The notes under the pieces: generated by a model
Database searches by the model: none
What the model was told of the DNA's origin: nothing
What the model saw: the letters and a program-made list of their open reading frames with translations, nothing else
Program-made: the position numbers and the translations under genes
Shown: one piece after another, positions 1 through 17,335 of the stretch
Layout: the number at the start of each line of letters is the position of its first letter
Numbering within the stretch: position 1 is the stretch's first letter
Source of the DNA: Treponema sp.
Lineage (GTDB): Bacteria > Spirochaetota > Spirochaetia > Treponematales > Breznakiellaceae
Assembly: GCA_031277045.1 (NCBI GenBank)
Contig: JAISLX010000131.1
Span: 1 to 17,335, forward strand
Reading direction: 5' to 3'
Length of the DNA: 17,335 nt

Positions 1-762
1 TTCATCAACAAAGATACGGTCCTTATCGAACCTACCAGCGGAAATACCGGCGTCGGGCTTGCCTTTGTGGCGGCCTCCAAAGGTTACCGCATCATTCTCG
101 TCATGCCCGACAGCATGAGCGTGGAGCGCCGCAAGCTCGTTCAAGCCCTCAACGCCGAACTGATCCTTACCCCCGGCGCCCAGGGAATGAAGGGCGCAGT
201 CCGCAAGGCCGAGGAAATCCGGGCCCAGATTAAGGGTTCCTATATCCCCCAGCAATTTGACAATCCCGCCAATCCCGATGTCCACAAAAAGACTACGGGC
301 CCCGAGATATGGAGGGATACGGACGGCCAGGTGGACGCCTTTGTGGCAGGCGTCGGAACCGGCGGTACGATCACGGGGGTAGGGGAATTCCTCAAAGAAA
401 AAAATCCGGATGTAAAAATATTCGCCGTGGAGCCTTATGATTCGGCGGTCCTTTCGGGGTCGGCGCCTTCCCCCCACAAGATACAGGGAATAGGCGCGGG
501 TTTCGTGCCGAAAGTGCTCAACACAAAAATTTACGACGAGATTTTCAAAGTGCGTGCCGAAGAGGCCTATGAAACCTCGCAGCTCCTTGGCGCCAACGAG
601 GGCCTCCTGGTGGGCATTTCTTCGGGAGCGGCGGCTTTCGCGGCGACGCAGATTGCAAGGCGGCCTGAGTTTGAGGGTAAGACCGTGGTGGTTCTTTTGC
701 CGGATACGGGGGAACGTTACCTTTCTACCCAGCTTTTCGACAGTCTTGAGAGGCCCGTGTAA
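1..762 (+). CDS. cysK: Cysteine synthase (O-acetylserine sulfhydrylase), 5' end missing
   Basis: PLP-dependent fold-type II enzyme making cysteine from O-acetylserine and sulfide in the cytoplasm. The window opens inside the gene: frame 1 is open from base 1, so the true start lies upstream, and the GTG at 67 is only an internal Val. Visible family motifs are TSGNTG (substrate-binding loop, at the very start), the [10 protein letters not shown] segment, [12 protein letters not shown] (PLP-phosphate loop), GISSGAAA and the C-terminal [12 protein letters not shown]. The PLP lysine would lie upstream and cannot be checked. It ends 1 nt before the NifB-like start, so the two genes are almost certainly cotranscribed. 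The family also contains O-acetylhomoserine- and thiol-using relatives, so in this context it could assimilate sulfide or a thiol released by the neighbouring reductase. That role is inference; the family call is firm. Confidence 0.93.
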
Positions 763-763
763 C

Positions 764-1666
764 ATGAAAGCAGCCGCATCCACCCCGCTGACCGAACTCA
801 AGGCGTCCCTCAAACATCCCTGCTTTTCCGGCGAAGCCAACGCCAACAGGGGAAGGATACATCTCCCGGTAAGCCCGGCCTGCAATATCCAGTGCCGGTT
901 TTGCAGGAGGGCTTTTAACAAGGTTGAAAACAGGCCGGGTGTAAGCTCAAAGATCCTGCGCCCCGAAGAAGCGGTTGAAGTCGTCAGGAAGTCCCTGGAA
1001 CTCTGCCCCGAAATAACTGTTGCGGGAATCGCGGGGCCGGGAGATACGCTGGCTACGGATAACGCGATCAAGACGGTTGAGATCATCCACCGGGAGTTTC
1101 CGCAGCTTATCAACTGCATGTCCACCAACGGGCTCCTTTTGGAACGTTACGCGCTTGATTTGGTCCGGGTATGGGTTAAAACCCTGACAGTAACGGTCAA
1201 TGCCGTTGATCCGGTCATTCTGGACAGGATAGTTTCTCACGTCCTTTGGGAAGGAGAAACCCTCAAGGGTCCTGAAGGCGCGGCGGTCTTGATAGAAGCC
1301 CAAAAGCGGGGGATTAAAAAAGCCGCCGATCTCGGGCTGGTGATCAAGATCAATATAGTCCTTATTCCGGGCGTAAACGACGATCATATAGGGGAAATCG
1401 CAAAAACCGTAAGCGGCCTGGGGGCGTCCATTATCAACATTATCCCGCTCCTGCCCCAAAACGAATTCTCAGGATGGGATACCCCTGACTGTGAGGCCCT
1501 TAACCGGGCCAGAGAGGATGCCGAAATGTATCTTCCGGTATTTAAGCACTGCCAGCACTGCCGGGCCGACGCAATCGGTATCCCCGGAAGAGGGGATATT
1601 TCTTCTCTTGTTTACGGAGAAGCGAAAAAACAAACGGAAACCGTGGAGACCTTTTCACACGGATAA
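764..1666 (+). CDS. nifB: NifB-like radical SAM cofactor-assembly protein
   Basis: 300 residues. NifB fuses two [4Fe-4S] clusters with a SAM-derived carbide to make the [Fe8S9C] NifB cofactor. The start is the ATG at 764, one base after the cysK stop, with a weak GAGAGG upstream; the longer frame from 554 only overlaps cysK. Visible motifs: HPCFSGEAN (18-26), HLPVSPACNIQCRFC with the radical-SAM cysteines C40/C44/C47, RPGVSSKIL, AGIAGPGD, NCMSTNG (C118), NIIPLLPQ and a C-terminal HCQHCRADAIG. Together these are diagnostic of NifB rather than a generic radical SAM protein. It lacks the NifX-like C-terminal domain of proteobacterial NifB and so matches the short archaeal/clostridial form. Oddity: the His normally found at position 9 of the HPC segment is Asn26. 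It presumably supplies the cluster for the two large subunits encoded just downstream. Confidence 0.88.
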   Translation: MKAAASTPLTELKASLKHPCFSGEANANRGRIHLPVSPACNIQCRFCRRAFNKVENRPGVSSKILRPEEAVEVVRKSLELCPEITVAGIAGPGDTLATDNAIKTVEIIHREFPQLINCMSTNGLLLERYALDLVRVWVKTLTVTVNAVDPVILDRIVSHVLWEGETLKGPEGAAVLIEAQKRGIKKAADLGLVIKINIVLIPGVNDDHIGEIAKTVSGLGASIINIIPLLPQNEFSGWDTPDCEALNRAREDAEMYLPVFKHCQHCRADAIGIPGRGDISSLVYGEAKKQTETVETFSHG

Positions 1667-1689
1667 TATTTTGTGAGAACAACATACCG

Positions 1690-1704
1690 CGTGGCTCTGC
1701 CACG
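1690..1704 (+). promoter_or_regulatory. Small hairpin between the nifB-like and nifK-like genes
   Basis: CGTGGC-TCT-GCCACG forms a perfect 6-bp stem with a 3-nt loop, in the 65-bp gap upstream of the nifK-like gene. It is followed after about 15 nt by the AAGGAG ribosome binding site and has no T-run, so it is not a simple terminator. It could be an mRNA processing or stability element separating cysK-nifB from the structural genes. A similar stem-loop precedes the last gene of the operon. Confidence 0.4.
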
Positions 1705-1731
1705 GCGCTTGTTGATTAAGGAGATGTTTTT

Positions 1732-3072
1732 ATGACTACATTTATTGACAGGCCGAGGTTCTCCTGCGCTTTGGGCGGCGCGATAGGAACCCTTCACGCC
1801 CTTTCCAGGACAGTTACCATTGTCCACGGTTCCGCCGGGTGCGCGGGTAACCTGAATAACGCCATCAATTCCAGCGCCGGTTATATGGGTTCCGGGTACT
1901 GCGGCGGACAGGCCATGCCTTCGTCCAACGTGGTGGAGCAGGACGTGGTCTTCGGCGGCGAGGCCAGGCTGAGGGAGGAGATCCAGTCTACCCTCGAAAT
2001 CGTTGACGGCGATCTCTTTGTGGTGGTTACCGGCTGTATGGTTGACATGATCAACGATGATACCGAAGCGATAACCTCCGAATTTAAAGACAGCAAAGTC
2101 CCGGTCCTGGGCATCCCGACGCCGAGCTTTAAGGGGAACAGCTTCTACGGTTACGAACTTGTCATGCAGGGGCTCGCGTCCAAGTATATCAGCCCCCAGG
2201 CAAAAAAAGACCCCGGGAGCGTCAATATCCTCGGAATCGTACCGGCCTTCGATATTTTTTGGAAGGGAAACCTCCGCGAGATCAAGCGGCTCCTCTCAAA
2301 ACTCGGGCTCAAAGTAAATACCTTCTTCGGCGAAGGCGAGACTTTGGAAAACCTCAAAAACGCGGGGAGCGCCGCGCTCAATATCGTTGTTTCAAACAAT
2401 GCCGGCATAGACAGCGCCCGGCATTTCCAGGAAGTCCACGGTATTCCCTACCTGGTTACGCCTTTCCCCATCGGCGCCCTCGCTTCGGAGAAGTTCCTGC
2501 GGGATGTTGCCGGGGCCCTCGACATTCCAAACGAGAAAGTCGAAAAGATCATCAGGGAAGAAAAAGAAATCTATTACGATTACTTCTTCCGCATCGTCGA
2601 TGTCCTCAACGACCAGGACTTGCAGCGTTACGCGATCATTGTGGCGGACTCCAATTACGCTCCGGCCATTACGCGCTTTATTTCGGACGAATTAAGCTGG
2701 CTGCCGGAACTTGTGGTGATCATTGACGGCATTCCCGCCGACAGGCAGGAATATGTAAGATCGGTTTTCAAAAATCTCAATTCGGGCCTTGAACCCCACG
2801 TCTTTTTTGAAACCGACGCTTCTTCCGTAAAGCGGCATCTTGCGGATATCTGGCCCCGGAATGACGGCAGGCGTTATTACGACGCCATGAGCCCGGCGGT
2901 GGTATTCGGGGGAAGCATCGAGAGGAACTTTGCGGAAGAATTTAACTATACCCTCATCCCGGTAAGTTATCCGCTGACAGGAAAATGCGTCATGAACAAG
3001 GCCTACGCCGGTTTTAACGGGGGGCTGTCTTTTACCGAGGATACTATTTCCAATCTGGTATCTAATTTATAA
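1732..3072 (+). CDS. Nitrogenase-like component 1, NifK/NifN-type (beta) subunit
   Basis: 446 residues; ATG preceded by AAGGAG at good spacing. The N-terminus carries three P-cluster-type cysteines in NifK order: SCALGGA (C12), VHGSAGCAGN (C37) and VTGCMVDMINDD (C102), plus C57 where NifK also has a Cys and the VFGGEARL segment. The C-terminus, with YTLIPVSYPLTGKC and YAGFNGG, resembles the NifK/NifN end rather than NifD. No cysteine occurs at the position of the NifD cofactor ligand (NIVVSNNAG region). There is almost no N-terminal extension before C12, so it is compact compared with nif-type NifK. It should form a heterotetramer with the next gene product. It precedes the alpha-type gene, the reverse of nifDK and marDK. 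It is clearly nitrogenase superfamily; the substrate is unknown. Alternatives are NifN-like scaffold or a methylthio-alkane reductase-type subunit. Confidence 0.85.
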   Translation: MTTFIDRPRFSCALGGAIGTLHALSRTVTIVHGSAGCAGNLNNAINSSAGYMGSGYCGGQAMPSSNVVEQDVVFGGEARLREEIQSTLEIVDGDLFVVVTGCMVDMINDDTEAITSEFKDSKVPVLGIPTPSFKGNSFYGYELVMQGLASKYISPQAKKDPGSVNILGIVPAFDIFWKGNLREIKRLLSKLGLKVNTFFGEGETLENLKNAGSAALNIVVSNNAGIDSARHFQEVHGIPYLVTPFPIGALASEKFLRDVAGALDIPNEKVEKIIREEKEIYYDYFFRIVDVLNDQDLQRYAIIVADSNYAPAITRFISDELSWLPELVVIIDGIPADRQEYVRSVFKNLNSGLEPHVFFETDASSVKRHLADIWPRNDGRRYYDAMSPAVVFGGSIERNFAEEFNYTLIPVSYPLTGKCVMNKAYAGFNGGLSFTEDTISNLVSNL

Positions 3073-3097
3073 CTGCTGCGCTATTTAGGAGGAAACT

Positions 3098-4654
3098 ATG
3101 GATTATTTGGATGCGAAGGGACCACCTTCACGGGAAGATCGGCTGAGGGCGGCGATAGCATTCGGCGGCGTGTGCTCCCAGATCAAGACCTGCGATAGGG
3201 CCGCAAGGAACGGCTGCACCAACCTGGCCCAGAGAAAGTTCACCGAATCCCAGGGCTGCCAGTTCAATCTGTCTCTGGGTACGATCAATTCCTTAAGGAA
3301 TTCAGTTACCATCCTGCACGGGGTGGTGGGTTGCGGAATCGCCTCGGTGCAGCTTTGGGGCCCCAACAGGGCACGGAAACGCCTCATCGATCCCAAGGCC
3401 GAAGGCATCGTTACGATAAGCACCAATCTTGACGAAAGCGACGTCATCACCGGCGGCGAGCGGAAACTGCGGGAAGCGGTTCTCTATGCGGAAAGGGAAT
3501 TGAGGCCCGAAACCATCGTGGTGGCCGTAAGCTGCGTGCCCGCCCTTATCGGCGACGACGTTGACGCCATTCTCGATGACCTCCAGAAACAGGTTTCGGC
3601 AATTCTGATACCGGTTCACTGCGAAGGTTTCAAAACAAAGCTCATGGCCACGGCTTACGATTCTGTTTACCACGGGTATCTCAAAAAGCTCGTGCGGCCG
3701 CCCAAACGGCGCAGAAATATATGGGAACAGGACGAGCAGCTCGCCGTTGAACGATTCAGGAATAGCCGCAAGGTCAATATCCTTAACATGGGCTCCTTGA
3801 GTTATCAGGACGAGGTGGAGATACGGCGCATACTTGAATCGCTGGACCTCAAAGTTACGTTCCTTCCGGTATATGCGGAGCCTGAGGATTTTCAATATAT
3901 GCTTGAGACAAGTCTCAATGTCAGCCTCTGCGGAACCCACGACGACTACTTTATCCAGCATATCGAAACAAAATACGGCGTTCCCTTTATCGTCGATTCA
4001 ATGCCCATAGGCAGGAAAAACACGGACCAGTGGCTGCGCCGGATCGCGGAGCATTTCAAACTTCAAGAGGAAGTCGAGGCTCTCATCAAAAATGAAAACG
4101 AAGAACTCGAAAAAGCCCTGGTTCCTTTCCGCGAAAAGCTCCGCGGCAAGAGGGTTTACCTGCTGGGAGGGGAGATCCGTATCGTGTCATCAGGCGAAAT
4201 CATGCAGGACCTCGGAATGGAGATCGTGGGTTTTAAGGCCCACCATTACGACCGTTTTGTGGAACCCATGTTTGACAACCTCCACGACATTGACGACGTA
4301 CTCTATTCGGTGGCAACGAGCCAGCCCTTTGAGACCTCCAATATCATTACCAAAATCAAGCCGGACATCTGCGTGGTTCATCCCGGAGGCCAGAACGTTA
4401 CCTCCCGCCACGGGCTTCCGCTGCTCCCGCTTTTTGGCCGCCAGTATAACTATGTCGGTTACAACGGCGTATTTGAATTCGCGAGACGTATTGTAAGGCG
4501 GTTCCGCAATTTTGAATATAACAAACAGATACAGGCCAATGTACCGCTTCCGTTTAAAAAAGAATGGTACGAAAAAGATCCCTTCAGTTATATCAAGGCC
4601 GCTCCGCTTGAGGAAGGTTCGGCTGAAATTGCAAAGATGGTGAGTGGGGAATAA
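3098..4654 (+). CDS. Nitrogenase-like component 1, NifD-type (alpha, catalytic) subunit
   Basis: 518 residues; ATG 8 nt after a strong AGGAGG. P-cluster-type cysteines are in SQGCQFN (C54), [10 protein letters not shown] (C79) and [13 protein letters not shown] (C146). VITGGERKL and PVHCEGFK (C175) align with Nif[14 protein letters not shown] (C278), followed by KYGVPFI, aligns with the NifD segment carrying the cofactor ligand Cys275. By ungapped eye alignment, Gln191 and His195 of Azotobacter NifD become M183 and Y187. His442, before the GFDG motif, becomes V453 before GYNG. Additional N-terminal cysteines C26, C32 and C40 are unusual. The pattern suggests a P-cluster and a NifB-derived cluster held by Cys but lacking the residues used for N2 reduction and homocitrate FeMo-co binding. 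The stop lies 1 nt before the nifH-like ATG. Probably the catalytic subunit of a nitrogenase-like C-S or other reductase; substrate not assignable. Confidence 0.86.
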
Positions 4655-4655
4655 C

Positions 4656-5537
4656 ATGGCGGCAATAAAAGCAAAGCAAATCGCGATTTACGGCAAGGGC
4701 GGCATAGGGAAATCGACGACAACGTCGAACCTCAGCGCCGCCCTGACAGAACTCGGCTACAAGGTGATGCAGTTTGGCTGCGATCCAAAAAACGATTCCA
4801 CCAACACCCTTCGCAAGGGCATCTATGTGCCCACGGTTCTCGATACGCTCCGGGAAAAAGGCGCCGTAAACGCCAGGGATGTAATCTACGAAGGTTACAA
4901 CGGCGTTTACTGCGTCGAGTCGGGCGGGCCTCAGCCCGGCGTAGGCTGCGCCGGCCGCGGTATTTTTACGGCGATAGAGCTTTTCAAACAGCAGAGGGTC
5001 TTTGAAGAACTGGATCTGGACTTTGTGATCTACGATGTTCTTGGCGACGTCGTCTGCGGCGGCTTCGCCGTCCCAATCCGTGAAGGGATAGCCCAGCATG
5101 TTTTCACTGTTTCATCTTCGGATTTTATGTCGATCTACGCTTCGAACAATCTCTTTAAGGGAATCACAAAGTACTCCAAATCGGGCGGGGCGCTTTTGGG
5201 CGGAGTCATCGCCAATTCGATAAACCTGCCCTACGCCAAGGAGATCATCGATGATTTTACCGCTAAAACACAGACAAAGGTGATGGAGTACATTCCGAGG
5301 TCCGTAACCGTTACCCAGTGTGAGCTCCAGGGGAAAACGACCATAGAAGCCGCTCCCGATTCGGCCCAGGCGAAAGTCTATCTCTCCCTGGCCCGGAAGA
5401 TTGCGGACCATACCCAGTCAAAAACTCCCTCGCCCCTGGGGGTTCAGGAGCTCCGGGATTGGGCCGACTATTGGGGGAAGTACCTGCTCTCTCTTGAAAC
5501 CGGCGAGGTGCGTCCTGAACTGGCGGTAAATCTGTAA
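4656..5537 (+). CDS. NifH-like ATPase, reductase component
   Basis: 293 residues. A homodimeric P-loop ATPase with a bridging [4Fe-4S] cluster that passes electrons to component 1 with ATP hydrolysis. The start is the ATG at 4656, 1 nt after the upstream stop, with GGGGA in front; the in-frame GTG at 4644 lies inside the previous gene and is less likely. Motifs: [10 protein letters not shown]-loop (13-21), GCDPKNDST (41-49), [16 protein letters not shown] with cluster ligand C98 and R101 (the residue ADP-ribosylated in some NifH), and [13 protein letters not shown] with ligand C134. It is very close to true NifH, so automatic pipelines may call it nifH. The divergent NifD-like partner argues against canonical nitrogenase. 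No nifI (PII-type) genes follow it, unlike many nitrogenase operons of anaerobes. Confidence 0.9.
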
Positions 5538-5540
5538 AAT

Positions 5541-5625
5541 GGGGAGCTGCTCCCAAGACCCGGTTGGTTTTGGGAAAGCTTCTGAGTTATGATTAAAATA
5601 GGTAAACCCCTGGCTTTGCCGGGGG
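5541..5625 (+). promoter_or_regulatory. Structured intergenic region before the flavoprotein gene
   Basis: Three stem-loops fill the 108-bp gap. GGGAG-CTG-CTCCC is at 5542-5554. A 10-bp stem (5551-5560 with 5566-5575, one G-T wobble, loop CGGTT) shares the TCCC at 5551-5554, so the two structures exclude each other. A third, 8-bp stem (5607-5614 with 5618-5625, loop TTT) stands 5 nt before the AAGGAGG ribosome binding site. None is followed by a T-run. A weak promoter, TTGGTT at 5564 with TATGAT at 5588 (18-bp spacer), may also lie here. The structures are read directly; a regulatory role is inferred. Confidence 0.45.
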
Positions 5626-5645
5626 ACTCAAAGGAGGAATATCTC

Positions 5646-6200
5646 ATGCCGAAAGAGATACTCGTTATAACCGGAAGCCCCCGCCGCAAGGGAAACAGCG
5701 ATCAGCTTGCGGACGCCTTTATCAAAGGCGCCTCTGCGGCGGGTCATACAACGTACAAATTTGAGGCCGCTTACAAAAAAGTCCAGGGCTGCAGAGGCTG
5801 CGATATGTGCTGGGCTTCTACGATTAAGCCCTGCGTGGTACAGGACGATTTCTTTGAACTTGTCCCGCTCATCGAGAAATGCGCCGTCCTTGTATTGGCA
5901 AGCCCTGTTTATTTCTGGGGCTTCAGTTCCCAGATAAAAGCGGTAATCGATCGCTTCTACCCATACGGTAAAACCGAAGGAAAAAAGCGTATCGCCGTTA
6001 AAGAAAGCGTCTTGCTTTTAAGCCTCGGCGACACCGAAGATTCGACCTATAGCCACGCGGCGCTCTCATACAAAGACATAGCGGATTATATGGAATGGAA
6101 AGATCGCGGCATCATCGCGGCAAAGGGTGTGCATAAAAAAACGGACATTTTAAAGAGCGAGGCCCTGGCGAAAGCCGGAGAACTTGGCCGGACGATTTAG
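5646..6200 (+). CDS. NAD(P)H-dependent FMN reductase-type iron-sulfur flavoprotein
   Basis: 184 residues. The start is the ATG at 5646, 8 nt after AAGGAGG; the in-frame ATG at 5589 lacks a comparable site. The N-terminal LVITGSPRRKGNSDQ is the FMN-phosphate loop of the flavodoxin-like NADPH-dependent FMN reductase family. LASPVYFWGFSSQIKAVIDR is the typical second flavin-binding region, and the C-terminus (DILKSEALAKAGELGR) matches the family. C49, C52, C55 and C63 form CX2CX2CX7C, close to the compact cluster motif of archaeal iron-sulfur flavoprotein (Isf), so a [4Fe-4S] cluster is plausible. Last gene of the nitrogenase-like operon, so a candidate electron carrier to the NifH-like protein. 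It could equally be a general flavin reductase. Confidence 0.8.
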   Translation: MPKEILVITGSPRRKGNSDQLADAFIKGASAAGHTTYKFEAAYKKVQGCRGCDMCWASTIKPCVVQDDFFELVPLIEKCAVLVLASPVYFWGFSSQIKAVIDRFYPYGKTEGKKRIAVKESVLLLSLGDTEDSTYSHAALSYKDIADYMEWKDRGIIAAKGVHKKTDILKSEALAKAGELGRTI

Positions 6201-6353: not shown

Positions 6354-6399
6354 AAAAAAAGCGTCTCCAAAATAGTATTTTGAAAACGCTTTTGCTTTT
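6354..6399. terminator. Bidirectional rho-independent terminator
   Basis: AAAAGCGT (6357-6364) pairs with ACGCTTTT (6386-6393), enclosing an inner CAAAATA/TATTTTG stem. On the - strand the stem is followed by seven T, ending the hypothetical gene at 6421. On the + strand it is followed by TTTTGCTTTT, so it can also stop transcripts of the nitrogenase-like operon. Its position between convergent genes fits both uses. Confidence 0.8.
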
Positions 6400-7065: not shown

Positions 7066-7102
7066 ATTTACTCCTTCTTTTAGGTTGTAGCTTGTATTGT
7101 AT

Positions 7103-7324
7103 AGGCCGTGGCCTCTGTTTTCAAGGCCAGGGCTTCAATTTTTTAGGCCAGGGCCTTTTTTCTTTAGGCCACGGCCTTTTTTTCGCAGGCCAGGGCTTTA
7201 ACTTTTTAGGCCAGGGCCTTTTTCCCTTTAGGCCGTGGCTTTTTTTTCCTGGGCCACGGCTTTTTTTCTTTAGGCTATGGCTTTTTTTTCGCAGGCCAGG
7301 GCCTTTTTTCTTTAGGCCAGGGCG
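7103..7324. repeat. 21-bp tandem repeat array, about eleven units
   Basis: Units begin at 7103, 7124, 7145, 7166, 7187, 7208, 7230, 7251, 7272, 7293 and 7314. The spacing is exactly 21 bp except once, 22 bp, where a T-run has gained a base. A degenerate unit may start at 7082. Each unit has a near-palindromic core AGGCC(A/G)(G/T/C)GGCC followed by a T-rich tract. It fills almost all of the 305-bp gap between the XRE gene and the hypothetical gene. Because 21 is a multiple of three, the + strand reads as Gly-Gln-Gly-Leu-Phe-type heptapeptides and the - strand as Pro-Trp-Pro-Lys-type heptapeptides, but the 22-bp unit and stops break both, so I regard it as non-coding. Confidence 0.92.
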
Positions 7325-7370: not shown

Positions 7371-7691
7371 TCAGCCTACATACCGCTTAAAAACCTCAGT
7401 CATTGCCAGATTGACGGTCTTTGTAAGATCTTCGGATATATGATTGAGCAATTCTTTATCATCATCGGGGGCAATATCCTCCAAAAAAAGCTTGTAGACC
7501 TCCACGCCAAGGGCATTTGACAGCTTTGACAGCATTTCCGGCTGGGGGAATTTAAGGCCCCGTTCAATATTGCTTAAAAAATTGATTGAGATGTCCGCTT
7601 TTTCGGATAGATCGGCCTGGGAAAGCCCCCTTCTGGCCCGCAATAACTTGATATTTCCGCCTAGGATATCTTTTATAGTCTGTCCGTCCAT
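7371..7691 (-). CDS. XRE-family helix-turn-helix regulator, copy 1
   Basis: 106 residues. A Cro/C1-type HTH occupies roughly residues 14-67: IKLLRARRGLSQADLSEKAD, the recognition segment SINFLSNIERG, then PQPEMLSKLSNALGVEVYKLF. The C-terminal 35 residues are acidic and helical, perhaps for dimerisation. The ATG at 7691 is forced: an in-frame TGA lies two codons upstream. A GAGGAGG lies about 17 nt upstream, longer than ideal. It is divergent from the outer-membrane protein gene at 7955, with a palindrome and direct repeat in between that could be its operator. It is paralogous to the gene at 8797-9117 (same length and layout). Probably a DNA-binding repressor of itself and its neighbour; target inferred from position. 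Confidence 0.88.
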   Translation of the reverse strand: MDGQTIKDILGGNIKLLRARRGLSQADLSEKADISINFLSNIERGLKFPQPEMLSKLSNALGVEVYKLFLEDIAPDDDKELLNHISEDLTKTVNLAMTEVFKRYVG

Positions 7692-7738
7692 GCCTCACAG
7701 CCCCGCAGCCTCCTCTATTGAAGTACACTTTGCCGCTG

Positions 7739-7784
7739 TTGACAAAACCCTAATAGGACAATAGTCTATAACCCTAATTGGGTT
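7739..7784 (+). promoter_or_regulatory. Candidate promoter and XRE operator, copy 1
   Basis: TTGACA at 7739-7744 is a consensus -35. The best -10 at 17 bp (TAGTCT, 7762) is poor. AACCCTAAT occurs twice, at 7746-7754 and 7770-7778, 24 bp apart. The second lies in the palindrome AACCC-TAATT-GGGTT (7770-7784). Such a dyad plus direct repeat over a promoter between a regulator and its divergent neighbour is the usual arrangement for an XRE operator. Binding is inferred. Confidence 0.5.
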
Positions 7785-7881
7785 TCCCGTGGTTTGCCGC
7801 GTTTCGGTGGCGGCGATTACGCCGGAAAACGGGGCGCCGCGGCCGGGCGCGGCGACGCCGTCTGCGGGCCCGGCCGGCGCT

Positions 7882-7947
7882 TCCCCGCGAGGGGACGCCT
7901 GCCCCTGCGGGCGGGAATTTCAGGGGGCTGAAGGCCCCGCGAGGAGT
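7882..7947 (+). promoter_or_regulatory. Structured 5' leader of outer-membrane protein 1
   Basis: Three successive stem-loops precede the ribosome binding site GAGGAG. H1 is TCCCC-GCGA-GGGGA (7882-7895), with a GNRA loop. H2 is CCTGCCC-CTGC-GGGCGGG (7898-7915), 7 bp with one T-G wobble. H3 is GGGGC-TGAAG-GCCCC (7924-7938). The same three stems, with the same 8-nt H2-H3 spacing, occur before the paralogous gene (9337-9393). Loop sequences differ while stems are kept, which favours a structured RNA over chance. Confidence 0.6.
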
Positions 7948-7954
7948 TTTTCAC

Positions 7955-8650
7955 ATGAAAAAACTTGTGCTGTTTTCGGTTCTTGCGGCGGCGGCCGCGG
8001 CGGGGGCGTTCGCCCTGCCTGAGTTCAAGGCCGGCGCAGGCGCGGGCGGCTTTTTTACCAGTGATTCAGGCGGAGGGGTTGAAGTATCGGCCGGGGGGCA
8101 AACCATGTCGATGAAAACCCCCTATGCCGGCGGCGGCGGTTTCGCGTTTGTGGACCTAACCTACGCGGAACTGTCGCTGGGCGTTTTCGGCGGCGGCGGT
8201 ACAACAAAACTGAGCGTGGGGAGCATCTCCCTGGGAGCCGGTATGTCCGTTACGGGGCTTGATATTGGGCTGCTGTTAAAATACCCCTTTGCAATCGGCG
8301 AAAAGCTTTCGCTGTTTCCCCTTGTGGGCAGCACCTGCCGGGTTATGCTTTCCGCACAAGATACGGACGGAAACAAGGTGCGGCATATTACGATTAACGA
8401 TCATGCCGGTAAAGAAGCGGATCCGGGGGATTTCAGCGCGCTGTGGTTTAACTTTGGCGGCGGTCTTGATGTTTTGTTCACCGATCATGTTTTTTTACGC
8501 GGGGAAGCCCTGTACGGGCTGCGGACCGTGAACAAATATGAAAAAGACTTTGATAAGGTTATTTCAGATATCGCTATTCCGGGGGTGGATACCAAGGCCC
8601 TGCCGGGGCACGGCTTTTTGGTAAAGCTTGCCGTGGGATACCGGTTCTAA
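7955..8650 (+). CDS. Outer-membrane beta-barrel protein, copy 1
   Basis: 231 residues. The start is the ATG at 7955, preceded by GAGGAG and giving a textbook signal peptide (MKK, hydrophobic core, Ala-rich end, likely cleavage after AFA at 18-20); longer in-frame extensions run through the structured leader. The mature part is Gly-rich with alternating hydrophobic and polar strands (TPYAGGGGFAFVDLTYAEL, VFLRGEALYGLRTV) and ends in AVGYRF. A terminal Phe is the usual signal for outer-membrane insertion by BamA. No lipobox Cys is visible. The size suits an eight-stranded barrel. It is paralogous to the gene at 9410-10087, with near-identical N-termini and strong similarity in strands and C-terminus. 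Its function, whether adhesion, permeability or other surface role, is not readable from sequence. Confidence 0.82.
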   Translation: MKKLVLFSVLAAAAAAGAFALPEFKAGAGAGGFFTSDSGGGVEVSAGGQTMSMKTPYAGGGGFAFVDLTYAELSLGVFGGGGTTKLSVGSISLGAGMSVTGLDIGLLLKYPFAIGEKLSLFPLVGSTCRVMLSAQDTDGNKVRHITINDHAGKEADPGDFSALWFNFGGGLDVLFTDHVFLRGEALYGLRTVNKYEKDFDKVISDIAIPGVDTKALPGHGFLVKLAVGYRF

Positions 8651-8661
8651 AAATTTTTTTA

Positions 8662-8695
8662 CGCGGCTGCTGTTCAGACGGCCGCGGCTTTTTTT
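8662..8695 (+). terminator. Terminator of outer-membrane protein 1
   Basis: CGCGGC (8662-8667) pairs with GCCGCG (8681-8686) across a 13-nt loop and is followed, after GC, by seven T (8689-8695). It starts 11 nt after the stop codon. Its 3' arm and T-run are part of a unit of the decayed 21-bp repeat, which suggests that these repeat units can act as terminators. Confidence 0.6.
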
Positions 8696-8780
8696 CTTTG
8701 GGCCGGGGCCTTAATTCTCCGGGCCGGAATGTCCTCCAGGGCCGCCTTTTCCGTTTCTTCCCGGTGACGGGCCGGGGCGG
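8679..8780. repeat. Decayed copy of the 21-bp repeat array
   Basis: Units starting at 8679, 8700 and 8721 are exactly 21 bp apart and share the core GGCC(G)(C/G)GGC(C) followed by a pyrimidine tract. Related but out-of-register GGGCCG motifs continue near 8739 and 8769. It lies 3' of the second XRE gene, in the same place and orientation as the intact array at 7103-7324 beside the first, so it was probably duplicated with the module and has since degenerated. Confidence 0.6.
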
Positions 8781-8796
8781 TCTGCGGTCCTGCGGG

Positions 8797-9117
8797 CTAG
8801 TCTTTGCAGGCGCCTGAGAGGGTTTCTTGTATGGCGTCCCGCACAACCTGTTTCATGTCGGTAACAATCTCCCGGCGCAGGCGTTCAAGCGCTTCGTCAA
8901 AGGTATCGGATGCGCTGAAAAGCCGGTGGGGCTCGACTTCCAGGGCTTTGGCAAGGCGTTCGAGCATTTCGGGCTTGGGGTATTTGTTGCGCGTCTCGAT
9001 CATGGCGATGTAGTGGGTGGATACGTCGGCTTTTTCCGCCAGTTGTTCCTGGGTTAGGCCCAGCTTCAGGCGGTTTAGCTTAAAATTCCGGGCCAAAATT
9101 TCTCTAATGCCTGTCAT
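8797..9117 (-). CDS. XRE-family helix-turn-helix regulator, copy 2
   Basis: 106 residues. The HTH spans about residues 12-65: FKLNRLKLGLTQEQLAEKAD, STHYIAMIETRNK, PKPEMLERLAKALEVEPHRLF. The C-terminal part is a charged amphipathic helix (EALERLRREIVTDMKQVV). The ATG at 9117 gives an N-terminus matching copy 1, but no ribosome binding site is near it. A perfect AAGGAGG lies at rc 9162-9168, too far upstream, and the frame between is open without an ATG, GTG or TTG at useful spacing. It is divergent from the barrel gene at 9410. ATGACC at 9131 and GGTCAT at 9185, the latter beside the -10 of the divergent gene, form an inverted repeat that could be half-sites. Likely local repressor, by analogy with copy 1. 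Confidence 0.87.
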   Translation of the reverse strand: MTGIREILARNFKLNRLKLGLTQEQLAEKADVSTHYIAMIETRNKYPKPEMLERLAKALEVEPHRLFSASDTFDEALERLRREIVTDMKQVVRDAIQETLSGACKD

Positions 9118-9166
9118 GTATGTTCGTACTATGACCTCTTCGGCAATGTTATATGCTTTATCCTCC

Positions 9167-9196
9167 TTGACTAATTTCCTATGTGGTCATTATAAT
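9167..9196 (+). promoter_or_regulatory. Sigma-70-type promoter of outer-membrane protein 2
   Basis: TTGACT (9167-9172), an 18-bp spacer and a perfect TATAAT (9191-9196). Transcription from about 9203 would give a leader of roughly 205 nt that includes the three-hairpin element. The -35 overlaps the sequence that reads AAGGAGG on the other strand, upstream of the divergent regulator. Confidence 0.72.
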
Positions 9197-9336
9197 TTGC
9201 CTAAACGTGCATTTCCTGGAGAATTTTACGGTCCGCAGGCCGTAGTTCGGGGAAGCGCGCCTAAAAACGGGCTGTTTTGGCCTGTTTGCGGCAACATCCG
9301 CCGGACGGCTCCGTATAGGGCTAAACCGGCTGTTGC

Positions 9337-9400
9337 TTCCCCGCAAGGGGAAACCTGCCCGTGCGGGCGGGAATTTTACGGGGCAAAGGCCCCAGGAGGA
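9337..9400 (+). promoter_or_regulatory. Structured 5' leader of outer-membrane protein 2
   Basis: Paralogue of the leader at 7882. H1 is TTCCCC-GCAA-GGGGAA (9337-9352), again with a GNRA loop. H2 is CCTGCCC-GTGC-GGGCGGG (9354-9371). H3 is GGGGC-AAAG-GCCCC (9380-9393). The ribosome binding site GGAGGAG follows at once, with the ATG at 9410. H1 gains one T-A pair relative to copy 1, while the loops change in all three hairpins. Confidence 0.6.
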
Positions 9401-9409
9401 GTTTTTCAC

Positions 9410-10087
9410 ATGAAAAAACTCGTGTTACTTTCGGTTCTTGCGGCGTTTACCGCGGCGGGGGCGTTCGCTATCAGCGCGGGCGCGGGCGGTTACTTTACCA
9501 GTGATTTCGGCGGAGGGGCTGAAAGCTCCCTCGTTTCCGTAAAAACCCCCTATGCCGGCGGCGGCGGTTTCGCGTTTCTTGACCTAACCTACGCGGAACT
9601 GTCGTTCGGCTTTTTCGGCGGCGGCGGTACATCAAAAATGAAAATAACCATACCGGGGGTGACCATAGGAGGGGTTAGTATCGTCGAACCAACGGAAGTG
9701 AAAACGGAAGGCAAGACGTCCATTTCGGGACTTGATATTGGGCTGCTGGGAAAATTCCCCATTGCCATTGGCAAAAAGCTTTCGGTATTTCCCCTTCTGG
9801 GCATTACCTACCGGGTTGTGCTTTCCGAAAACGATAAGGACGGAAAGAAGGTAAAAAACTTTGCTGGTAAAGAAATCGACCCAGGGGATTTCAGCGCGCT
9901 GTGGTTTAAAGGCGGCGCCGGTCTGGATGTTTCGCTCACCGATAAACTTTATCTGCGCGGGGGGCTCTTGTACGGGCTACGGGCCGCGAACAAGTTTGAA
10001 AACGACCTGCTTGATACAAAGGCAGCAAATATCATTTTACTTGGGCACGGGCTTGATGCAACGCTCGCCGTGGGGTACCGGTTCTAA
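9410..10087 (+). CDS. Outer-membrane beta-barrel protein, copy 2
   Basis: 225 residues. ATG at 9410, 9 nt after GGAGGAG. The signal peptide MKKLVLLSVLAAFTAAGAFA has its likely cleavage after AFA. The mature part is a Gly-rich barrel with the same landmarks as copy 1: KTPYAGGGGFAF.DLTYAELS, FFGGGGT, GLDIGLL, DPGDFSALWF, LYGLR and C-terminal AVGYRF. The variable stretch is around residues 75-105 (PGVTIGGVSIVEPTEVKTE), longer than in copy 1, as expected if an extracellular loop differs. The gene is followed by a three-stem repeat and a strong terminator. Function unknown beyond an outer-membrane location. Confidence 0.82.
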   Translation: MKKLVLLSVLAAFTAAGAFAISAGAGGYFTSDFGGGAESSLVSVKTPYAGGGGFAFLDLTYAELSFGFFGGGGTSKMKITIPGVTIGGVSIVEPTEVKTEGKTSISGLDIGLLGKFPIAIGKKLSVFPLLGITYRVVLSENDKDGKKVKNFAGKEIDPGDFSALWFKGGAGLDVSLTDKLYLRGGLLYGLRAANKFENDLLDTKAANIILLGHGLDATLAVGYRF

Positions 10088-13347: not shown

Positions 13348-13764
13348 CTAGAACTGTTCCACCACGGAAAGGCCGTTATCCTTGATGATGCCAAGGCCCT
13401 TTTCATGATCCGCCAGTTTGAAAATGACCACCGCCTTTCCCGCCGTTCCTTCCAGCGAGGCGTACAGGTATTCGATGTTTACCTTGGACTTCTGGAAAAG
13501 CTCCATAATCCGGGCAAGGCTGCCGGGATTGTCGTCAATTTCCACCGCCGCCACATCGGAAACCCTGGTGGTAAAACCGCCCGCGTTCAGGGCCCGCAGG
13601 GCGTCGTCGCGCTTGTCCACGATGAGCCGCAGAATGCCGAAATCCGCCGTATCCGCGATGCTGATGGCCCGGATGTTGATCCCCGCGCCGGCCAGGGTCC
13701 GGGTTACTTCCGCAAGCCGGCCCGCGTTATTCTCCAGGAAAACCGATATTTGTTGTATGCCCAT
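13348..13764 (-). CDS. Tandem ACT-domain protein
   Basis: 138 residues made of two ACT domains and nothing else: about residues 3-70 (QISVFLENNAGRLAEVTRTL, then GINIRAISIAD) and 72-138 (AVEIDDNPGSLARIMELF, then VNIEYLYAS). Each begins with the beta-strand/NxxGxL(A) signature of small-molecule-binding ACT domains, which usually bind amino acids. The ATG follows AGGGGGATAAC, only 9 nt past the ligase stop. Double-ACT proteins are commonly found next to phenylacetate-CoA ligase genes in anaerobes, where they may sense an aromatic amino acid or aryl acid. That role is inference. Confidence 0.9.
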   Translation of the reverse strand: MGIQQISVFLENNAGRLAEVTRTLAGAGINIRAISIADTADFGILRLIVDKRDDALRALNAGGFTTRVSDVAAVEIDDNPGSLARIMELFQKSKVNIEYLYASLEGTAGKAVVIFKLADHEKGLGIIKDNGLSVVEQF

Positions 13765-13773
13765 GTTATCCCC

Positions 13774-15075
13774 CTATATTTTCCGGTTGTCGATGACCCG
13801 CCTGGCTTTGCCGATGGACCGCTCTATGGTTTTGGGTTCTACCAATTTTACCTTAACCCCAATCTGAAGCTTGCTTTTCATAACATTTTCGATTCGGTTC
13901 CGCAATTCTTCAAGGCCCCTGGTTTCGTCGCTGAAAAGTTCCCGCTTTACCTCCACCTGGAGTTCCACATCGTCCAAATGGCTTTCCCCCCGGTTCACTA
14001 CGATAAGGTACTGGGGTTCGGTTCCCTCAATTTCGATAAGGGCCTGCTCGATCTGGCTGGGGAACACGTTGACCCCCCGGATGATGAGCATGTCGTCGGT
14101 ACGGCCAAAAAGCCGGTGCATCCGCACGGTGGTTCTGCCGCAGGAGCAGGGCTCGCTCATCAGACAGGTGATGTCCCTGGTCCGGTAGCGGAGCAGCGGC
14201 GTGCCCTCTTTGGTCAGCGTGGTAAAGACCAGTTCGCCCTTTTCCCCGTGGGGCAGGACCTTTCCCGTTCCGGGATCGATGATTTCCGGGTAGAAAAGGT
14301 CTTCGTTGACGTGGAGGCCGTTCTGGGCTTCGCACTCAAAGGAAACGCCGGGGCCGATAATCTCCGTAAGGCCGTAGATGTCGTAGGCCTTCATGCCGTA
14401 GCGGCTTTCGATTTCCTTCCGCATATTTTCGCTCCAGGGTTCCGCCCCGAAACAGCCCTTGCGGATGGGGAGCTTGTGAAGGTCGATTCCGGCGTCCGCC
14501 GCTTCTTCCGCCATGTAGAGGGCGTAGGAGGGGGTACAGGTAAGGATGGTGGAGCCGAAGTCCTGCAGAACCATAAGCTGCCGGGCGGTATTGCCGCTGG
14601 ACATGGGCAGCACCTCCGCGCCGATGGTCAGGGCCCCGTAGTGGGCGCCCGGCCCGCCTGTAAAAAGGCCGTAGCCGTAACAGTTCTGCACGATGTCGTC
14701 CTTGGTGCAGCCGGCGGCCGCCATTGTCCGGGCCATAGCCTCCCGCCAGATGTTAATGTCCTTCATCGTGTACTCGTCCACCACGGGTTTGCCGGTGGTG
14801 CCGGAACTCATGTGGACCTCCACAATCCGGTCCTTGGGGCAGGCGAGAAGGCCGTGGGGGTAGTTAAGCCGCAGATCGTCCTTGGTAGTAAAGGGCAGAT
14901 GTTCAATGTCGTTAAGGCTGTGGATGTCCACGGGCTTTACCCCCAGGGCGTCCATCTTTTCCCGGTAAAAGGCCACGTTGGCGTAGAGCATTTCCACCAG
15001 GTTTTTAAGGTTGGCAAGCTGAAGTTTTTGCCGGACAGCCGTGTCCATACATTCGTATTCGGGATTGAAAATCAT
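13774..15075 (-). CDS. paaK: Phenylacetate-CoA ligase, copy 2
   Basis: 433 residues, family-typical. An adenylate-forming enzyme activating phenylacetate or another aryl acid to the CoA thioester with ATP. Landmarks: P-loop SSGTTGKP (90-97), [80 protein letters not shown] and the C-terminal [11 protein letters not shown] with the lysine used in adenylation. In gut anaerobes such enzymes sit in aromatic amino acid breakdown, often with indolepyruvate oxidoreductase, which is not in this window. It heads the ligase-ACT-glgA unit behind an extended -10 promoter and a structured leader. AAGGAAGG stands 7 nt before the ATG. Confidence 0.93.
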
Positions 15076-15117
15076 GGCGCCTTCCTTTTTTCGCGTTGTT
15101 TGGATATACGGCAGACC

Positions 15118-15191
15118 CGGCGGTTTACCGCGCTTCGCGCATACGATCCCTAAAAACCGGCTGAAAGCGGACTTTTACCCGCAAACCGCCG
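15118..15191 (-). promoter_or_regulatory. Structured leader with terminator-like hairpin before paaK copy 2
   Basis: Read on the - strand: CGGCGGTTT (rc 15183-15191); then a stem CCGCT-TTC-AGCCGG with one bulged C followed by TTTTTA (rc 15151-15170); then GCGC-GAA-GCGC (rc 15130-15140); then AAACCGCCG (rc 15118-15126), which pairs perfectly with the first arm. The terminator-like stem may simply end the transcript of the upstream ligase gene. Because the promoter at 15207 precedes it, it may instead attenuate paaK. Confidence 0.5.
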
Positions 15192-15206
15192 CGTGTAACA
15201 GGCCCC

Positions 15207-15215
15207 AGTATACCA
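15207..15215 (-). promoter_or_regulatory. Extended -10 promoter for paaK copy 2
   Basis: On the - strand TGGTATACT is an extended -10 (TGn plus TATACT, 5 of 6 consensus). No good -35 stands 17 bp upstream, as is common for extended -10 promoters. Start would be near 15200, about 125 nt before the ATG and upstream of the terminator-like hairpin. Confidence 0.5.
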
Positions 15216-15249
15216 TAACACAGGGGCGTTAAAGCAGCCGGCGGGGAGT

Positions 15250-16563
15250 TTACAGGTCCCGGGGCCGGTTGTCGATAACCCGCATGGCCTTGCCCTCCGC
15301 CACGGGGAGGCTCCCCCCCTCGTGAAGCTCCACTCTGGGGTTGATCGTTATGGAAGCCTGGATAGTCGAGCGGATCCGGTCCCGCAGGGCGTTCAGGGGC
15401 CGGGTGTCGTCCATAAAGATGTTTTTCCCCACCTCTACCTTGACGGTAAGCCGGTCAAGCGCCCCCTCTTTTTCCACCACGATAAGGTAGTTGTTTCCCG
15501 CGTCTTTCACGGACATAACCGCTTCCTCAATCTGGCTGGGGAAGACGTTTACCCCGTTGATAATCAACATGTCGTCGGTACGGCCTGTGATCCGGCGGAG
15601 CCGCCGGTGGGTACGGCCGCAGGCGCAGGGTTCGGTATAGAAACCGGACAGGTCCCTGGTACGGTAACGCAGCAACGGTGTGGCCTCCCGGCACAGGCAG
15701 GTAAGGACCAGTTCCCCGGTCTGGCCGTCGGGGACCGGTTCCAGCGTATCGGGATCGATGACCTCCCCGATGTAGCGGTCCTCCCACAGGTGCATGCCGT
15801 TCTTGGCCTGGCACTCAAAGGCGACGCCGGGGCCGTTCATCTCCGAAAGGCCGTAGGAATTGTACACGTCAATCCCCAGCAATTCTTCGATCCTCAGGCG
15901 GGTGTCCTCCGAGTAGGGTTCCGCCCCGGCGAACGCCTTGCGGAGTTTTAGGCTTTCCCGGCGTACCCCTTCCTCCTTCATCCGGGCCTCCACGTGGAGC
16001 AGAAAACTGGGGGTGGCGTGGACCACGGTGGTGCCGAAGTCCTGCATCAGCCGGAACTGCCGCGTCGTATTGCCCGGCCCGGAGGGAATCACCAGCATCC
16101 CTACTTCCTCCCCCCCGGCGTGGAAGCCCAGGCCCCCGGTAAAGAGGCCGTAGGTTATCATATTCTGGAACACGTCGGCCTTGTTACAGCCCGTACCGTA
16201 GATGCAGCGGGCCACATTGTCGGTCCAGCGTTTTATATCGTCCCGGCTAAAATATATCGTCGTGGGGACCCCCGTGGTACCGCTGGAGGCGTGGAGCCGC
16301 ACCACCTCTTCCTTGGGAATGCTTAAAAAGCCGTAGGGAAAACCGTCGCGGAGGTCCTGTTTGGCGGTGTAGGGGATGCGCCGCAGGTCCGCCAGGCTTT
16401 TGATGTCGCCGGGGCTTGTAATTCCCGCCTTGCCCAGCCGTTCCCGGTAAAAACTCGTCCGCAGGGCCCAGCCCACGGCCTCCTTAAGCCTGGCAAGCTG
16501 CAGGGCCTCAAGGGCGGGGCGGGGCATTGTTTCCAGTTCCGGGTTCCAGTATTGATAATCCAT
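15250..16563 (-). CDS. paaK: Phenylacetate-CoA ligase, copy 1
   Basis: 437 residues. Same fold and motifs as copy 2 but clearly diverged: SSGTTGVP (93-100), [78 protein letters not shown] and the C-terminal GKAMRVIDNR. The ATG has GGAG about 11 nt upstream. The first position of the gene string on the - strand suggests its own promoter in 16564-16650, but I see no clear one. Two divergent ligases side by side point to different aryl or branched acids (for example phenyl-, hydroxyphenyl- or indoleacetate), or to one acting in biosynthesis and one in breakdown. Which is which cannot be read here. Confidence 0.92.
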   Translation of the reverse strand: MDYQYWNPELETMPRPALEALQLARLKEAVGWALRTSFYRERLGKAGITSPGDIKSLADLRRIPYTAKQDLRDGFPYGFLSIPKEEVVRLHASSGTTGVPTTIYFSRDDIKRWTDNVARCIYGTGCNKADVFQNMITYGLFTGGLGFHAGGEEVGMLVIPSGPGNTTRQFRLMQDFGTTVVHATPSFLLHVEARMKEEGVRRESLKLRKAFAGAEPYSEDTRLRIEELLGIDVYNSYGLSEMNGPGVAFECQAKNGMHLWEDRYIGEVIDPDTLEPVPDGQTGELVLTCLCREATPLLRYRTRDLSGFYTEPCACGRTHRRLRRITGRTDDMLIINGVNVFPSQIEEAVMSVKDAGNNYLIVVEKEGALDRLTVKVEVGKNIFMDDTRPLNALRDRIRSTIQASITINPRVELHEGGSLPVAEGKAMRVIDNRPRDL

Positions 16564-16717: not shown

Positions 16718-16723
16718 TATAAT
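16718..16723 (+). promoter_or_regulatory. Possible -10 element of the GH109-like gene
   Basis: A perfect TATAAT ends 7 bp before the ATG at 16731, so transcription from it would start at or next to the start codon, giving a leaderless message. The -35 region (TTATAG at 16695) is poor. It may be coincidence. Confidence 0.3.
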
Positions 16724-16730
16724 GACAGGA

Positions 16731-17335
16731 ATGAAACCATTGATAAACATCGGCATCATCGGGCTTGGCGGCAGGGGCATGAGTTTGATGGAGGTCTGCA
16801 TCCTCCCCCGGCCGGAGGTAACGGTTACGGCGCTCTGCGATTCCTACGAGGACCGCCGGTTGGAGGCCGCCGCGAAAGTTGGAAAGGCCGCCGGCCGGCC
16901 CAAGCCCCTGGTCACCGGGGACTACCGGGAAGTTCTGGACATGAAGGGCCTGGACGCGGTCCTTATCGCGACGGGCTGGGCGCCCCATGTGGAAATAGCC
17001 TGCGCCGCCATGGAGGCCGGCGTTTACGCGGCGGTGGAGGTGGGGGGCGCCTATTCCGTTGACGATTGCTGGCGCCTTGTCCGCGCCCAGGAAGAAACCG
17101 GCGCCCAGTGCATGCTCATGGAAAACTGCTGCTTCGGCCGCTACGAGCTCATGGTCCTCAACATGGCCCGCCAGGGCCTGTTTGGTGAAATAGTCCACTG
17201 CCAGGGCGGTTACCGCCACGACCTAAGAGCGGAAATAACGGGCGGCTGGGAAAACCGCCATTACCGCAAGGACAACTACCTGCTGCGGAACTGCGAAAAC
17301 TACCCCACCCACGAACTGGGCCCCATCGCCGAAGT
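16731..17335 (+). CDS. Gfo/Idh/MocA-family protein, GH109-like, 3' end missing
   Basis: 201 codons visible, running off the window. The N-terminal INIGIIGLGGRGMSLME is a Rossmann NAD-binding loop. VLIATGWAPHVEIACAAMEAGVYAAVEV is the typical second part of the domain (usually ending EKP, here EVGG). Then MENCCFGRYELMVLNMARQG, FGEIVHCQGGYRHDLR, NRHYRKDNYLLRN and NYPTHELGPIAEV follow, a series I associate with glycoside hydrolase family 109 (alpha-N-acetylgalactosaminidase). Those enzymes cleave by an NAD-dependent oxidation-elimination mechanism. The start at 16731 is chosen because the fold begins there; an in-frame ATG lies at 16722. No signal peptide is visible, so a cytoplasmic role, for instance on imported glycosides, is likelier. 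Substrate not certain. Confidence 0.82.
   Translation, partial: MKPLINIGIIGLGGRGMSLMEVCILPRPEVTVTALCDSYEDRRLEAAAKVGKAAGRPKPLVTGDYREVLDMKGLDAVLIATGWAPHVEIACAAMEAGVYAAVEVGGAYSVDDCWRLVRAQEETGAQCMLMENCCFGRYELMVLNMARQGLFGEIVHCQGGYRHDLRAEITGGWENRHYRKDNYLLRNCENYPTHELGPIAE

Follow-up and report, generated by a model that had tools for sequence, protein, structure and literature searches.

A cysK-linked nitrogenase-like operon of a Treponema sp. with a distinct D and K subfamily and a possible role in organosulfur assimilation

The window, i.e., the whole 17,335-nucleotide stretch of Treponema sp. DNA that we analyzed, probably of a gut-dwelling spirochaete, opens with six ORFs on the + strand in the order cysK-nifB-K-D-H-flavoprotein (Table 1). 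All six frames were confirmed to be open, and the intergenic gaps along the run are 1, 65, 25, 1, and either 51 or 108 nt, the last depending on the flavoprotein start (the ribosome site is better at 5646 than at 5589). Pfam and NCBIfam calls for the run were PALP/CysK, radical SAM/NifB, two PF00148 domains, Fer4_NifH, and FMN_red. The cysK frame is open from the first base and the gene is cut by the window start; its truncated product scored 344 bits against the TIGR01139 cut-off of 351, the best score among PLP families. The strong hairpin downstream of the flavoprotein gene is likely to be the operon end. None of nifE, nifN, nifV, or nifI was the best family match in the run or among the other window genes scanned. 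Two claims of an earlier note on this DNA, a six-gene run on one strand with gaps of 1 to 108 nt and the lack of these four genes from it, are thus borne out.

Table 1. Features of the operon and its downstream flank, with window coordinates
Feature	Position	Strand	Basis or remark
cysK, cysteine synthase A, C-terminal 253 aa	1..762	+	NCBIfam TIGR01139; 5' end beyond window start
nifB-like radical SAM enzyme, 300 aa	764..1666	+	TIGR01290, PDB matches, motifs
K-type catalytic subunit, 446 aa	1732..3072	+	PF00148, MarK match, Cys mapping, tree
D-type catalytic subunit, 518 aa	3098..4654	+	PF00148, MarD match, residue table, trees, AF2 model and fold match
H-type reductase (Fe protein), 293 aa; Cys98 and Cys134	4656..5537	+	TIGR01287, MarH match
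FMN-reductase-fold protein with CxxCxxCx7C motif	5589 or 5646..6200	+	PF03358/PF02525, sequence
Terminator-like hairpin, 17 pairs, T-runs	6357..6393	.	Faces convergent gene

Among solved structures, the best match of D, K, and H is methylthio-alkane reductase (Mar), with 212 bits for MarD, 252 bits for MarK, and 480 bits for MarH (the next match of H, a NifH, scored 280 bits). An AF2 model of D gave a Foldseek fold match, VIA-align being used solely as a second look at the Foldseek hits. Both D and K scored far below every curated NCBIfam cut-off, and no Bch/Cfb model (DPOR, COR, CfbD) was matched above its cut-off, the best being K against BchB at 107 of 490 bits. That NifE ranks first among the curated models for D might suggest that D and K form a NifEN-type cluster-assembly scaffold rather than a catalyst, but the score, 170 of 505 bits, is far under the cut-off, and we regard this reading as extremely improbable.

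In our trees, D and K fall in a clade of their own, outside the Mar clade and the canonical NifD/E and NifK/N clades. AU tests rejected a D tree in which the core clade was joined to Mar and Mar-like sequences (p-AU 8.5e-7), as well as placement of window D alone with those sequences (1.1e-53) and of the core clade next to just Mar proper (D, 2.8e-37; K, 6e-72). Forcing all proteins with a loop-I His into one clade gave a p-AU of 0.021, and a single gain of this residue is therefore unsure. A motif scan of genome contigs turned up the clade at 74 loci spread over five phyla; at least 120 D relatives with at least 55% identity were among the matches listed, and named isolates with the clade include Sporobacter termitidis, Mobilisporobacter senegalensis, and Faecalicatena contorta. 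Window H, which scored 396 bits against TIGR01287 (nifH) and thus barely passes the cut-off of 394, groups with MarH in a tree showing no split between the clade and Mar; because carriers use two H lineages, the H tree is unable to tell them apart. On sequence grounds D and K are a distinct subfamily, and it is to them that "distinct" refers. The suggestion in the earlier note of a distinct nitrogenase-like reductase is accordingly supported by D and K; H did not separate from MarH.

All six Mar P-cluster cysteine positions are kept (Cys54, Cys79, and Cys146 in window D, and Cys12, Cys37, and Cys102 in window K at the MarK positions), and Cys278 and the loop-I His428 of window D align to Cys270 and His429, the ligands of the Mar [Fe8S9C] cluster. 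The residue table of the clade shows the D-side P-cluster cysteines, the cluster-ligand Cys, and the loop-I His in 22 of 22 members. The NifB-like protein has NifB as its top PDB matches, scores 262 bits against TIGR01290 (cut-off, 344), and carries the NifB motifs HPC, CNIQCRFC, RPGV, AGPGD, TVTVNA, and CQHCRAD; no NifX domain was found in its 300 aa. Because the ligand positions are kept and these motifs are present, D likely holds an untrimmed NifB-type cluster rather than FeMo-co, which is what the sequence had earlier been taken to indicate. The last gene of the run, whose CxxCxxCx7C product is presumably iron-sulfur flavoprotein-like, occurs in only 6 of 75 loci (window counted) and was rejected as a core operon partner.

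The surroundings of the predicted cluster differ from those in Mar. Arg428-His429 in loop I is a proposed hallmark of Mar (PMC12552129), but the Arg is absent from window D and from 22 of 22 members of its clade. Mar His194, Trp195, and Phe199 are replaced by Leu182, Met183, and Tyr187 in window D; across the clade, His194 and Phe199 occur in 0 of 22 and Trp195 in 1 of 22. Mar (MarBHDK of Rhodospirillum rubrum) thus resembles the window system in fold, NifB-type maturase, P-cluster Cys, cluster Cys and loop-I His positions, MarH-type reductase, and sulfur-assimilation setting, but differs in D/K clade, in these pocket residues, in gene order (K precedes D in the window clade), and in that CysK is a steady partner here. 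The operon could still encode a functional methylthio-alkane reductase, converting methyl thioethers to methanethiol and hydrocarbon, with CysK just a sulfur-starvation neighbor. The nearest solved homologs, the common ligand positions, and the grouping of H with MarH would suit this, as would metY, whose product is able to use methanethiol and which is found in 12 of 75 loci. However, cysK is found nearby much more often than metY, and a separate D-K pair (D identity 26-30%; those examined are Mar-like) adjoins 11 of 74 loci, which suggests different substrates. We rejected membership in Mar on the basis of the trees, the AU tests, and the residues, and we consider a Mar activity unlikely; Mar as the nearest functional idea, put forward in the earlier note, stands for fold and cluster ligands but not for membership.

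The retained P-cluster and cluster-ligand positions and an H barely above the nifH cut-off could also be reconciled with a Group IV nitrogenase fixing N2, as claimed for Endomicrobium proavitum, which has group IV genes only and was reported to take up 15N2 (PMC9147875). Yet Gln191 and His195 of NifD correspond to Met183 and Tyr187 of window D, NifE stays below the cut-off or is absent in 35 of 50 carriers (a small number of the lower-scoring hits may be truncated genes), canonical NifE accompanies the operon in carriers including Sporobacter (G001), and the context is one of cysK and a transporter. NifE exceeded the cut-off in 15 of 50 carriers, including 2 of L001-L012, and NifV did so in 2 of 50, a count blurred by paralogs and split genes. 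N2 fixation, a very remote prospect in our estimation, was set aside as the main reading, and the enzyme very likely does not fix nitrogen. Group IV-A/Nfa (E. proavitum, Heliophilum NflDK1) is alike in having a Group IV D-K pair. The Geotalea, Syntrophobotulus, and methanogen group, for which the label Nfa is our guess, branches separately in the tree, with Pro in place of the loop-I His. Endomicrobium was neither among the 74 loci nor among the 120 matches listed for a protein search with the D of L119, our possible-Nfa query.

Where the flank is long enough to tell, the K gene always terminates no more than 600 nt upstream of D (68 of 68 loci). A cysK gene is present within 3.5 kb upstream in 49 of 54 loci, the other 5 having no cysK at that place; the cysK-K-D arrangement is thus more than chance. 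The earlier note had looked to a separate clade with a conserved cysK-B-K-D-H order: the D/K clade was recovered and the order recurs, but just 25 of 54 loci have B placed between cysK and K. Genes for a sulfonate-type ABC transporter occur nearby in 20 of 32 loci (12 are without a full set), and in 16 of the 43 loci with sufficient flank a complete ABC transporter set immediately precedes cysK. In the window, this stretch upstream of cysK would be cut off by the window start. Some transporter sets may instead serve the neighboring Mar-like pair. Transporter binding proteins scored 121 and 108 bits against the SsuA cut-off of 163.5, so sulfonate specificity is not supported, and inference of a substrate from the binding protein was dropped, its six PDB matches being weak and of mixed specificity.

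The transporter genes nevertheless bring to mind isethionate reductase (Isr; IsrBHDK of Rhodobacter capsulatus), which works with an SsuCAB transporter (PMC11423573) and is likewise a Group IV system with a radical SAM partner, a sulfonate-type ABC transporter, and a place in sulfur assimilation. A similar sulfonate reductase would release sulfite from an imported sulfonate, and a sulfite-reductase-type domain is present in 22 of 50 carriers, including L067, L019, L020, and L023, which at 64-65% D identity to the window are about as close to it as L010-L012. However, IsrD is reported to have just one P-cluster Cys and to lack the cluster Cys (the counterpart of Cys275), and IsrB to be BciD-like (PMC11423573), whereas window D has three P-cluster cysteines plus Cys278 and window B carries the NifB motifs; moreover, the domain is missing in 28 of 50 carriers, whose genome completeness is unstated. 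Isr, which we consider improbable, was set aside on these published features, by description and not by sequence. All of L001-L012 are among the carriers without the domain, which favors sulfide over sulfite as the product. In a family survey, 89 of 118 genomes had no such domain, and it was present in 7 of 27 carriers compared with 22 of 91 others; because its lack is common across the family, absence as an operon-specific trait is unsupported.

We place somewhat better than even odds (roughly 55%) on the operon encoding an assimilatory, ATP-driven organosulfur reductase of nitrogenase build that feeds sulfide to CysK. The direct observations behind this proposal are the gene order, homology, ligand positions, separate clade, and neighbors. 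NifB would supply an [Fe8S9C] cluster without further maturation to FeMo-co, D would hold it between Cys278 and His428, and H would pass electrons via the P-cluster common to D and K. An organic sulfur substrate, imported in many relatives by what may be the sulfonate-type ABC transporter, would be cleaved reductively, presumably at a C-S bond, and the released sulfide would be turned into cysteine by the co-encoded CysK. One observation against this reading is that five CysKs from such operons in other treponemes cluster next to the second CysKs. More tentatively, and with less confidence than doubt, the enzyme may belong to an additional class of enzymes built on the NifB cluster: a nitrogenase-like desulfurase converting imported organosulfur to sulfide for the co-encoded CysK and perhaps emitting hydrocarbon in termite and animal guts. 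If so, a Met-Tyr pocket without the loop-I Arg would be a third way, next to those of Mar and nitrogenase, of setting what the cluster reduces.

That such genes are linked to cysK is already in print (2012, 2023, and 2026): nitrogenase-like genes near cysteine synthase, which may not all belong to the present clade, were noted by Dos Santos 2012 (PMC3464626), in PMC10418091, and, for "P. corrugata," in PMC13067680. The relevant passages of these sources give the link as context, with no clade, residue, or transporter analysis. Our literature search found no account of the function or residues of this clade. The clade is widespread and has a built-in clue in cysK plus transporter, and its function can be tested now; to our knowledge, a function is established for only a handful of Group IV nitrogenase-like enzymes. 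The clade also provides a naturally altered pocket around unchanged cluster-ligand positions, which could help in learning how the protein sets what the cluster reduces. Finally, counts of nifHDK-like genes can overstate nitrogen fixation, as window H itself passes the nifH cut-off.

Domain scans bore out the earlier note's naming of the six close-packed plus-strand genes of the window, in order the C-terminal part of cysK, a nifB-like, a K-like, a D-like, and an H-like gene, and a flavoprotein gene, with gaps of 1, 65, 25, 1, and 51 or 108 nt between them. Because the window H lies just above the nifH cut-off, automatic annotation would label it nitrogenase. The proposal that this is a distinct nitrogenase-like system holds: the clade is a real, widespread subfamily of Group IV nitrogenase-like enzymes, separate in both D and K, and, judged from sequence, one with kept ligand positions, an altered pocket, and cysteine synthase as its regular partner.

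Positions of other features in the window
Position	Strand	Feature
6357-6393		Strong hairpin 3' of the flavoprotein gene, the last of the run
7102-7323		21-nt tandem repeat units (AGGCCAGGGC plus a T-run) beside a minus-strand HTH gene
7371-10087	both	Two minus-strand HTH regulator genes, each near a plus-strand gene for a similar putative secreted/outer-membrane protein, one with a beta-barrel family match; the pair looks duplicated
13348-16563	minus	Two phenylacetate-CoA-ligase-like genes and an ACT-pair protein gene, adjoining glgA
16722-17333	plus	GFO/IDH/MocA, glycosyl hydrolase 109-like gene, 5' part only (cut at the window end)

The D tree, built from 51 D-type proteins, places the window D in a 20-row clade (support 98/97) whose sister (96/84) holds methylthio-alkane reductase (Mar), the Mar-like pairs, a group labeled Nfa by guess, and one more row; canonical NifD and NifE fall outside both. 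The K tree echoes this arrangement (95/98). AU tests rejected uniting the 14 core D rows with the full set of 19 Mar and Mar-like rows (p-AU 8.5e-7) or with Mar proper only (2.8e-37), the window D alone with the same 19 rows (1.1e-53), and the K core with Mar proper (6e-72). The separate branching thus holds for D and K but not for H, as the window H clusters with MarH and other carriers (genomes with a D-K pair of the clade) use a second H lineage at ∼50% identity. The guessed group (locus L119 with proteins P0242-P0361) is conserved, retains the cluster Cys, carries Pro in place of the loop-I His, and may be Nfa; the gene order in L119 is H-D-K, and names in the group include Geotalea, Syntrophobotulus, and methanogens.

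By protein search and genome motif scan, the closest relatives of the window are Treponema and Spirochaetaceae. The search returned 512 D relatives at E≤1e-20, and the 120 listed were all at least 55% identical. A two-motif genome scan gave 74 loci, which their names assign to Spirochaetota (43), Bacillota (22), Synergistota (4), Myxococcota (4, titled "Deltaproteobacteria"), and Fusobacteriota (1); named isolates are Sporobacter termitidis, Mobilisporobacter senegalensis, Faecalicatena contorta, and Clostridium sp. LS, and the draft genomes are, we presume from their accession series, mostly from termite guts. The Clostridium sp. LS genome (G004; loci L105-L111) has 28 PF00148 matches, a radiation of nitrogenase-like proteins within one genome.

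Portions of PMC12552129 describe the Mar cluster as bound by Cys270 and His429, its S2B as ringed by His194, Trp195, and His375, and Arg428 as contacting belt sulfide S5A, with Arg428 and His429 together a possible mark of Mar. Among 22 clade members (MarD numbering), all kept the three D-side P-cluster Cys and the equivalents of Cys270 and loop-I His429, and 21 kept His375 (Asn in L112). In contrast to the seven Mar rows, all with His194, Trp195, Phe199, and Arg or Lys428, none of the 22 had His194 or Arg428, the loop being one residue shorter, and all had Tyr for Phe199; at Trp195 the 16 core rows uniformly had Met, and the six other rows had Met, Val, or once Trp (the second D of L069). The 13 Mar-like rows lacked His194 while keeping Trp195, Phe199, and Arg428; His429 was present in 12 of them. 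With ligand positions kept and pocket residues replaced, cluster anchoring looks retained while the pocket looks different. The window K keeps its three Cys, the window B has all six NifB motifs tested, and a NifB-like match (E≤1e-30) was found in 47 of 50 carrier genomes, none being found at that threshold in L009, L018, or L057. Fixation of N2 by a Group IV enzyme has been claimed for Endomicrobium proavitum in parts of PMC9147875 and PMC11257099; here, because Met183 and Tyr187 of the window D stand in place of NifD Gln191 and His195, it is unlikely. For nif genes beyond the window, absence was examined in the relatives' genomes: NifE exceeded its cut-off in 15 of 50 carriers, including 2 of the close carriers L001-L012, and the L004 genome had no PF00148 protein above cut-off besides its own D-K pair.

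Neighborhoods were surveyed at 75 loci including the window, counting those with enough flank. The expected order cysK-B-K-D-H was upheld in that all 68 loci with 1.5 kb available upstream had K ending no more than 600 nt before D, and a same-strand cysK lay within 3.5 kb upstream of D in 49 of 54 (3.9 kb available), but B stood between cysK and K in only 25 of the 54. In the five exceptions, cysK was on the other strand (L049, L031), further upstream (L017), or not found within the locus (L042, L064). A CysK tree covering 31 of the 60 operon copies groups the window's subgroup with Firmicutes operon CysKs, away from the same treponemes' second CysKs, but five operon CysKs of other treponemes (L053, L055, L057, L060, L062) adjoin those second copies; the operon label requires five changes, so the operon CysKs are not a single clean clade. 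The 32 wide-flank loci had a complete ABC set in 20, an H gene in 23, and a NifX-like gene in 18. Sixteen of 43 loci carried the ABC set immediately upstream of cysK, and in 9 it lay downstream of D at a distance of no more than 3.5 kb; sets placed elsewhere may serve an adjoining Mar-like pair. Scores of the ABC binding proteins against SsuA (121 and 108 bits) were under the 163.5 cut-off. Less frequent neighbors among the 75 loci were cysE (4), metY (12), patB (8), and Rrf2 (5). A second, distant D-K pair, always D before K, lay nearby in 11 of 74 loci, and L066 had two distant D genes near its operon. The second pairs (L036, L037, L045, L048, L049, L055, L064, L065, L066, L068, L071, L072) had 26-30% D identity, often their own ABC genes, and at times their own cysK or metY; the 8 of these 12 loci in our trees or residue table were Mar-like.

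CysK uses sulfide, and the likeliest job of the clade is reductive sulfide release: an imported organic sulfur compound would be reduced by the clade enzyme and its sulfur freed as sulfide, a reaction that we infer. An alternative is a reaction of the isethionate reductase (Isr) type, described in part of PMC11423573, which would release sulfite. No match to PF01077, the siroheme sulfite/nitrite-reductase domain, was found in 28 of 50 carriers, among them every one of L001-L012 (D identity 64-86%); it was present in L067, L019, L020, and L023, whose D identity is roughly that of the last carriers in that set. As carriers without PF01077 would not readily use sulfite, we infer that sulfide is favored as the product and the Isr-type reaction disfavored. 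However, the lack of PF01077 is no operon signature: among 118 genomes of the family of genome G005, completeness not reported, 29 had the domain, namely 7 of the 27 genomes counted as carriers (D at ≥49% identity) and 22 of the 91 others.

Searches of an open-access library turned up no functional or residue-level account of the clade. Sections of Dos Santos 2012 (PMC3464626) note that Cys275-bearing nitrogenase-like proteins, including that of R. rubrum, often have cysteine synthase or O-acetylhomoserine sulfhydrylase encoded close by, and a passage of PMC13067680 mentions termite spirochaete nifK and nifD with cysteine synthase, possibly for sulfur metabolism. Portions of PMC10418091 connect "IV-A" genes with clusters of corrinoid methyltransferase genes, and CysK is named as one of the neighbors in a figure legend; methyltransferase genes of that type adjoin the window's clade in L053 and L057. 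In some treponemes (L053, L056, L057, L058), the operon has corrinoid methyltransferase-type genes beside it on the opposite strand: MtaA-like, RACo, and, in three of these four loci, B12-binding.
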